Source: Ferrithrix thermotolerans DSM 19514 (GTDB lineage: Bacteria > Actinomycetota > Acidimicrobiia > Acidimicrobiales > CAIXPF01). Taken from it: a stretch of 45,623 nt of DNA. The stretch lies in contig CAMDQT010000026.1 of assembly GCA_945906305.1 (NCBI GenBank), forward strand, positions 1 through 45,623, written 5' to 3'. Positions 1 through 1,667 of the stretch are shown piece by piece. The position numbers were made by a program, and so were the translations under genes. Numbering within the stretch: the stretch's first letter is position 1; every line of letters starts with the position of its first letter. The notes beneath the pieces were generated by a model. The model did no database searches, was not told the DNA's origin, and saw only the letters and a program-made list of their open reading frames with translations.

Positions 1-909
1 GCCGCGGTCCTCGAAGCCAATGTGCCCGGTGTTCGTTCCGGCGTCGATGACGAGTACCTGCATGACTTCCGCGTGACGTTGCGTAGCGTGCGGGCCCTGG
101 TGTCGGTGGCCCACGGCGTGCTGGACGAGGAGCGATGCTCAGACCTCGCTGATCGTCTGCAACAAGTCGCAACACGAAGTTCGCCGGTGCGAGATCTCGA
201 CGTGTTGCGGCGGCGTTGGAATGGCGAGGACGCTCTGCACTTGCTGGTACCGGTGCTCGAGCAGGATCGACGCATCAAGAATCAGCTGCTGTTGGAATTC
301 CTCGACGGCCCAGCTTTGCCCGCTCTGCTGGCCGAGCTGCGTCGGCCCGTAGCGGTTCTGCCCGCCGAGGACGACGGCGTGGTAGTGCGCAACGCCGCGA
401 TGTGGGCGGCCGAGGTGCTCTCGGCCGAACTGGCTCGCCTGCATCGGCGAACGCGACCTGTGCTGGCGTCGCTGGCCCATGGCGGGGACCCCGCGCCGGG
501 GGGGTACGACGAGGTTGCGGTGCATGATGCCCGCAAGGCGGTGAAACGGCTGCGTTATCTGCTGGAGGCGTTTGCCTCCATCACCTACGGGGCACGGCTC
601 GAAGGTTTGGCGCGTGCGGTCGATGTGCTACAGTCCGACCTCGGGGAGTTCCAAGATGCCGTCGTCGCGATCATGGCCATCGATCGGTCCGGGGCGCGCG
701 TGGCCGAGTTGTCACCGGGGGCACTGATGGAATTGGGCCGCCGAAGTGAGCAGCACTGTCAGCTACGTGAGGCCGCAGTCGGCCACTTTATTGAGCACTA
801 TCGCGCCTTCGCCCGCCGCGGCGAGCACTATGCCCAACGCCTCGAGGCTCTGGCCACCACGGCGCGACCCGTGTCCGTGCCGATCGCGATCGTCAGGTCC
901 AAGCCGTGA
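1..909 (+). CDS. CHAD-domain protein, 5' end outside the window
   Basis: The reading frame is open from base 1, and the residues before the GTG at 22 (AAVLEAN) continue the CHAD fold, so the true start lies upstream and about 302 residues are visible. CHAD (conserved histidine alpha-helical domain) proteins bind polyphosphate and localise to polyphosphate granules; some are fused to a CYTH triphosphatase domain. Two copies of the histidine helix are visible: YLHDFRVTLRSVRAL near the N-terminus and VHDARKAVKRLRYLLEA about residue 175, followed by the typical LQSDLGEFQDAVVA helix. No CYTH domain is visible, but one could lie upstream. The stop overlaps the start of the ParA-type gene by 4 bases (GTGA), so the two are probably co-translated. 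The family is secure; the exact role is inferred. Confidence 0.85.
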   Translation, partial: AAVLEANVPGVRSGVDDEYLHDFRVTLRSVRALVSVAHGVLDEERCSDLADRLQQVATRSSPVRDLDVLRRRWNGEDALHLLVPVLEQDRRIKNQLLLEFLDGPALPALLAELRRPVAVLPAEDDGVVVRNAAMWAAEVLSAELARLHRRTRPVLASLAHGGDPAPGGYDEVAVHDARKAVKRLRYLLEAFASITYGARLEGLARAVDVLQSDLGEFQDAVVAIMAIDRSGARVAELSPGALMELGRRSEQHCQLREAAVGHFIEHYRAFARRGEHYAQRLEALATTARPVSVPIAIVRSKP

Positions 910-1667
910 GCGTCATCGCGCTGTACAACAGCAAGGGCGGGGTGGGAAAAACCGCCGCCACGGTAAATTTGGGCCACCTTGCGGCCGGTCAGGGTTACCG
1001 CACCCTCGTGTGGGACCTCGATCCTCAGGGCGCGGCCACCTACTACTTCCGGGTTCGTCATCGGCTCAAGGGGGGATCGCTGGCGTTGACTAGCCAGCGG
1101 GACCGAATCGGGGATCGGGTGCGAGGCACCGACTTCGAGCTGCTCGATGTGTTGCCGTCGGACCTGGAACTGCGCAATGTCGAGTTCGCCTTCGATGCCG
1201 CGAAGCATCGTACTGGACGGGTACGCCGTGTGGTGCAGGAGCTGCGACGCGATCACTATGAGCTGATCTTCATCGACTGCCCGCCTTCCTCATCGTTGGT
1301 AGCAGAGAACATTTTTGCCGCCGCCGACGTGCTGCTGGTCCCGGTGGTGCCGACCACGTTGTCGGTTCGGACGCTGCGACAACTCGATGACACGCTGGGT
1401 GAGATGAAGGGACCGATCCCGAAGGTCTTGGTGTTTTTCTCCATGGTCGATGGACGCAAGAGCCTCCATGCCGAGTTGGTCGCCGCGCTACGCGACGAGC
1501 GACAGGATGTGGCGACGGCGATGATTCCGTCCGCTACCGAGGTGGAGCTCATGGGAACGACGAGGCGGCCGGTGACAGAAACTGCCCCGAACAGCGTGGG
1601 CGCACAGGCCTACGCTCGGTTGTGGGACGAAGTGGTGCGCCGGGGATACACTGAGCTCACGCTTTAG
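906..1667 (+). CDS. ParA/MinD-family cargo-positioning ATPase
   Basis: This 253-residue P-loop ATPase opens with the deviant Walker A NSKGGVGKT (signature Lys10, catalytic Lys15, Thr16). The Walker A' segment LVWDLDPQG and the Walker B segment LIFIDCPPS follow. The family dimerises on ATP, binds DNA non-specifically and moves plasmids, chromosomes, carboxysomes or other cargo along the nucleoid. There is no parB next to it and no long N-terminal DNA-binding domain, so it is an orphan ParA rather than a chromosome-partitioning ParA. The GTG start at 906 sits inside the stop of the CHAD gene, suggesting translational coupling and a shared task. The glycine riboswitch starts 3 bases after its stop. 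The family call is firm; the cargo is inferred. Confidence 0.88.
   Translation: MSVIALYNSKGGVGKTAATVNLGHLAAGQGYRTLVWDLDPQGAATYYFRVRHRLKGGSLALTSQRDRIGDRVRGTDFELLDVLPSDLELRNVEFAFDAAKHRTGRVRRVVQELRRDHYELIFIDCPPSSSLVAENIFAAADVLLVPVVPTTLSVRTLRQLDDTLGEMKGPIPKVLVFFSMVDGRKSLHAELVAALRDERQDVATAMIPSATEVELMGTTRRPVTETAPNSVGAQAYARLWDEVVRRGYTELTL
1647..1652 (+). promoter_or_regulatory. Candidate -10 element (TACACT) for the glycine riboswitch transcript
   Basis: TACACT lies in the last codons of the ParA gene. A start about 7 nt downstream would place the transcript's 5' end roughly 12 nt before the first riboswitch stem. No good -35 box is visible, so read-through from the CHAD-ParA unit cannot be excluded. 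Confidence 0.35.

Follow-up and report, generated by a model that had tools for sequence, protein, structure and literature searches.

We identified a conserved two-gene unit in which a CHAD-domain protein is encoded directly ahead of a ParA/MinD-type ATPase that belongs to a clade of its own. The pairing is real and old, beyond what chance would give, and it is in our view about an even call whether the unit is a ParA/MinD-type positioning system with polyphosphate (polyP) granules as its cargo and the CHAD protein as its adaptor. This proposal builds on the observed pairing and its age, the separate clade of the ATPase, its intact ATPase motifs, the intact polyP residues of its partner and the loss of a catalytic motif from that partner. 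The unit stands at the start of a 45,623-nucleotide stretch from Ferrithrix thermotolerans DSM 19514 (the window), which is the entire contig C26 of a draft genome of 3.10 Mb in 52 contigs; the closest relatives of this genome that bear a name are Acidimicrobiia MAGs.

The contig begins inside the CHAD gene, which explains why no start of the CHAD reading frame falls within the window. Positions 1..909 (plus strand) encode by translation the C-terminal CHAD part of the protein (302 aa; Pfam CHAD PF05235, E 4.6e-35), matching residues 231-519 of the family profile, while the N-terminal ~225 aa, a triphosphate-tunnel-like domain, lie at the translated end of contig C3 of the same genome (1-675, minus strand), where a profile search of the genome contigs matched profile residues 6-221 (C3:1-657, minus strand). 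The CHAD gene is full length and split over two contigs; the translated ends of C3 and C26 fit a full-length homologue (L004) with only ~10 residues absent at the join, and since both end within the same CHAD gene, C3 (reversed) and C26 very likely abut. At the other end of the gene, the CHAD stop (907-909) shares bases with the GTG start of the ATPase in a four-base GTGA junction (906..909, plus strand), and the 253-aa ATPase occupies 906..1667 on the same strand. A tandem glycine riboswitch of ordinary kind (1664-1851) starts at the ParA stop, ahead of gcvT and then gcvP, so that the CHAD-ParA unit ends there. A genome search returned single copies of PPK1 (C19), PPK2 (C2), CHAD and ParB. 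The earlier note had described the four-base overlap and the lack of an adjacent parB, and both observations hold: the sole ParB (C3:38156) comes after another ParA, the Soj at C3:37330.

If C3 and C26 abut, this soj-parB pair lies ~38 kb from the CHAD-ParA pair, on the contig whose end bears the rest of the CHAD gene. This proximity, together with membership of the ParA family, would suit a ParA of the usual partition kind, for chromosome or plasmid, served by a distant ParB, an outcome that the earlier note had named as one that would refute its reading. In two trees (quick maximum likelihood, with long outgroup branches), however, a fully supported branch parts the ParA family from Soj, MinD and other paralogues. 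Pair-type ParAs score ~400-505 bits on the family profile, while no Soj paralogue in the first comparison exceeded 146; more distant family members score down to ~190 bits. The ParA of the pair thus shows neither of the features that define ParABS, an adjacent ParB and grouping with Soj, and the single ParB already adjoins Soj. On the strength of the trees and of that ParB we rejected the partition reading, which is largely refuted and very improbable.

Two of the three outcomes that the earlier note held would refute it were examined and neither arose: the ParA stands apart from Soj, and the pairing extends well beyond close relatives. A ParA scan of ~85,000 species genomes yielded 325 relatives, of which the best 80 (from Actinomycetota, Methylococcales and other Gammaproteobacteria, Nitrosomonas, Desulfuromonadaceae, and Myxococcota) were taken, giving 81 loci with the window. 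In 53 of these 81 loci the gene immediately upstream, in the same orientation, encodes CHAD. The pair spans four phyla (Actinomycetota, Pseudomonadota, Desulfuromonadaceae, and Myxococcota) and occurs in all major ParA branches; among the other 28 loci, a few end at a contig edge and cannot be judged. The four-base overlap of the window recurs identically at 30 of 52 measurable junctions, and at 51 of the 52 the two genes are within 60 bases of each other. Of 296 Actinomycetota genomes drawn evenly, nine contained a family ParA (>320 bits), adjoined by CHAD in seven, and of 299 Pseudomonadota genomes drawn in the same way, 56 contained one (at least 235 bits). In the Pseudomonadota, CHAD adjoins the family ParA at only 5 of 30 loci examined, which counts against granule positioning, and in the tree as a whole 57 of 120 family members are not beside CHAD. 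CHAD-linked ParAs are found in all deep branches of the clade and unlinked members in several nested groups, so the linkage appears most simply ancestral, with repeated later loss.

These unlinked members suit a reading in which CHAD is one neighbour among several and the ParA family acts on some other cargo or in some other process. A Pseudomonadota subclade (L194-L215 except L211 and the CHAD-linked L196 and L197; e.g. L204, L205, and L209) lies near rnfH, truA or cysM in genomes mostly without PPK1, which points the same way. We consider this reading rather improbable, given that CHAD linkage occurs in every deep branch and the unlinked groups look like later losses. One such nested group, Methylobacter/Crenothrix, includes M. 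tundripaludum, which retains a pair-type CHAD 290 kb from its ParA. Moreover, CHAD co-occurs with ParA even where the genes are apart, being present in 45 of 61 ParA-bearing Pseudomonadota genomes versus 55 of 238 ParA-less ones (odds ratio 9.4, p 4e-13, uncorrected for kinship). The RnfH encoded near ParAs of the rnfH/truA/cysM subclade can have a tail of repeats rich in Lys and Ala (KVAAAKAKKAA), reminiscent of granule proteins of the histone H1-like kind such as AlgP.

In several lineages the genes around the pair strengthen its link to polyP. The ppk1 gene belongs to the same gene run at at least six loci (L012, L025, L057, L060, L072, and L161), and PstS and SixA-like genes flank other CHAD-ParA loci. 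PPK1 was present in all 15 ParA-family genomes tested. Among the 61 ParA-bearing Pseudomonadota genomes, 38 have no PPK1, a further point against positioning, and 35 of those 38 have PPK2, which in turn speaks against another cargo. PPK1 was accordingly rejected as a required marker, since it fails in part of the Pseudomonadota, where PPK2 is found instead. With one or the other enzyme present, nearly all ParA carriers have a means of polyP synthesis, which is consistent with a polyP cargo and does not discriminate among readings. As for CHAD genes apart from ParA, many PPK1-less Pseudomonadota (G335:C35, G331:C97, G346:C19, G374:C81, and others) encode a stand-alone CHAD divergent from, and adjoining, PPK2; Actinomycetota tunnel-CHAD proteins unlinked to ParA (L168-L185) are often encoded beside PPK1; and a pair-type CHAD without ParA (L162:3-3051) adjoins genes for a DUF47 (PhoU-like) protein and a Pit-type phosphate transporter.

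Full-length CHAD partners are ~510-570 aa long. An AlphaFold model of the L004 partner (pLDDT 89.7) combines an N-terminal beta-rich domain with a C-terminal helical CHAD, and in foldseek it is most like 6qva, the CHAD of C. tepidum in complex with polyP, with related CHAD structures, YgiF, and triphosphate tunnel enzymes next; these matches identify the N-terminal domain as tunnel-like. Mutation of His253, Arg256, Arg260, Arg296, Arg418 or Tyr419 in CtCHAD lowers polyP binding (PMC6537752), and in our alignment the equivalents of these residues are invariant in 28 of 28 partners, the window included. On the plus strand of the window they fall in a first motif, HDFRVTLR (61..84; His253, Arg256, and Arg260), in a single arginine (190..192; Arg296), and in a second motif, HDARKAVKRLRY (523..558), whose final RY corresponds to Arg418/Tyr419. 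The partner thus has both the CHAD fold and the polyP-contact residues by which a phosin is recognized.

The ExExK catalytic and metal-binding motif, by contrast with the intact polyP residues, occurs in none of the 27 partners that have the N-terminal domain, and the Pfam CYTH model found no match among 10 partners scanned. We therefore rejected an active triphosphatase or cyclase, and a tunnel domain without ExExK makes the partner look like a granule adaptor rather than an enzyme. A basic disordered N-terminus of the kind found in ParB/McdB-type partners is absent; the first strand of the tunnel domain stands at the very start of the partners. A basic C-terminal tail is found in the lineage of the window and in some other lineages, and is not conserved across partners. 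A conserved basic tail as a ParA-activating peptide was rejected on both counts. We also rejected a C-terminal motif as a mark of pairing with ParA, since unpaired CHADs have similar motifs.

The ATPase itself bears the features of the ParA/MinD superfamily, Walker B included: a Pfam AAA_31 match (E 1.2e-32), a deviant Walker A (KGGVGKT, 933..953) with signature Lys10 and with Lys15, and the DxDPQG motif (DLDPQG, Walker A', 1014..1031), all on the plus strand. In the ParA family alignment, DxDPQG and both lysines, signature and P-loop, never vary. The closest folds to its AF2 model (pLDDT 83.8) are Soj/ParA, then BcsQ, McdA, and MinD. A Lys/Arg-rich loop absent from Soj (residues 49-73; 1050..1124, plus strand) has low AF2 confidence at residues 50-69 (pLDDT 54), and positions 49, 51, 55, and 73 are K/R in 95-100% of linked members versus 4-16% of Soj. 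Together with residues 53, 90, 155, 185, and 220, these make up the basic residues gained by the family, which are mostly absent from Soj. Arg184-Lys185 (1455..1460, plus strand) pairs the first canonical Soj DNA-binding arginine, retained as Arg184, with a family-specific lysine. The residue equivalent to Soj Arg218 is Asp/Glu in the ParA family, which also counts against positioning; the numbering (Arg189/Arg218 type) is what we take to be that of B. subtilis Soj.

Soj has two canonical DNA-binding arginines, and MipZ is a case in which DNA binding is retained although the residues responsible for it differ (PMC7229837). Given this precedent and the basic residues gained, DNA binding by the family ParA through a different basic patch is plausible. 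Judged from sequence, it is also possible that the ParA binds polyP directly. One could then picture a basic ParA that binds polyP through its loop 49-73, such that the granule and not DNA is its matrix and ParA and CHAD together control granule size or fusion. The family-specific basic residues and the acidic second arginine site would fit such an arrangement, whereas its basis in sequence and the persistence of MipZ binding to DNA argue against it, and we regard it as decidedly improbable.

We hypothesize that the CHAD protein, like others of its family, would coat polyP granules and, once bound there, would recruit its dedicated ParA-type ATPase through contact between the two. The ATPase would bind ATP and dimerise, as expected from its family, and the dimer would bind the nucleoid until contact with granule-bound CHAD stimulates hydrolysis and release. 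Granules would then follow the ParA gradient, and be spaced or shared between daughter cells, much as McdA acts on carboxysomes. The naming of cargo and adaptor follows from the use of gene neighbourhood as a guide to ParA/MinD cargos, an approach that has succeeded in H. neapolitanus with its ParA/MinD ATPases (PMC10241942). The fuller claim, that a multi-phylum, ATP-using system of this type places and partitions polyP granules by way of a dead tunnel-CHAD adaptor without an N-terminal peptide, we put slightly short of even.

Known ParA/MinD partners contact their ATPase through a charged disordered N-terminus (PMC10241942), and the weak point of the positioning model is that CHAD partners do not have one. 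Contact may instead be made through a folded CHAD surface or through the C-terminal tail, which is basic in the lineage of the window; otherwise the ParA may be a local regulator. As a local regulator, the ATPase would be an ATP-dependent switch for the assembly or regulation of the polyP machinery (CHAD and PPK1) without nucleoid transport of granules, somewhat in the manner of BcsQ, which acts in cellulose synthesis. The pairing and the ppk1/pst/sixA context would suit such regulation equally well, BcsQ is among the structural neighbours, half of the canonical arginine pair for nonspecific DNA binding is lost, and the ParB-type N-terminal peptide is missing from the partner. The nearest sequence and fold are nevertheless those of nucleoid-binding Soj/ParA and not BcsQ, and among ParA/MinD ATPases that come with a dedicated partner gene, cargo positioning is a common role (PMC10241942). 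We judge a local switch unlikely, though the likeliest of the rival readings. The earlier note's central claim, a CHAD adaptor with ParA-driven granule positioning, is thus borne out in part: the pair is conserved, the polyP residues are invariant, ppk1 shares the gene run, and the catalytic motif is lost, while the basic N-terminus is absent, one DNA-binding arginine is acidic, and about half of the family ParAs have no CHAD gene next to them.

The closest parallel to granule positioning by CHAD and ParA is McdAB carboxysome positioning, which likewise sets a ParA-type ATPase gene beside that of a cargo-binding protein, separate from ParABS. The cargo here would instead be polyP granules, the system is described from its genes, and the partner is a folded tunnel-CHAD protein where McdB-like proteins have a charged N-terminal peptide. 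No McdB or carboxysome genes were seen among the clustered neighbours examined, and the ATPase does not qualify as McdA. Chromosomal Soj/ParA of ParABS is nearest in fold and sequence (1wcv/2bek/8ray) and shares the deviant Walker A and the match to Arg184; the CHAD-paired ParA differs in its separate clade, the lack of an adjacent ParB, Asp/Glu at the second arginine, and its extra basic loop. Among CHAD phosins (CtCHAD, the R. eutropha CHAD proteins, and E. coli YgiF), the partner is alike in CHAD fold, invariant polyP residues, and N-terminal tunnel fold, and is distinct in a tunnel domain without ExExK that Pfam CYTH misses and in the pairing of its gene with parA.

The folD-ppk-parA-CHAD cluster of Acidithiobacillus, which we matched by its published description alone, presents the same neighbourhood; its ParA was read as a partition protein and its CHAD as a class IV adenylate cyclase or copper-related, with no positioning idea in those reports (PMC10892726, PMC6416229). 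AlgP of Pseudomonas aeruginosa also spaces polyP granules via DNA, but is a histone H1-like DNA binder without an ATPase (PMC9239181). In a 2025 review, the machinery of polyP granule placement is listed as unknown except for AlgP, which binds DNA, and an energy requirement is posed as a question (PMC13052382). We found no proposal of ParA-driven polyP positioning in the literature searched, which lay outside preprints and most subscription journals.

The conserved CHAD-ParA unit is a concrete, testable candidate for polyP granule placement, and some of its carriers can be cultured (e.g. Methylotuvimicrobium buryatense 5G, Nitrosomonas aestuarii, and Methylomonas lenta). If the positioning model is true, a storage granule would join the cargos of ParA/MinD ATPases. 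More generally, many ParAs now annotated as partition proteins would gain a better working label.
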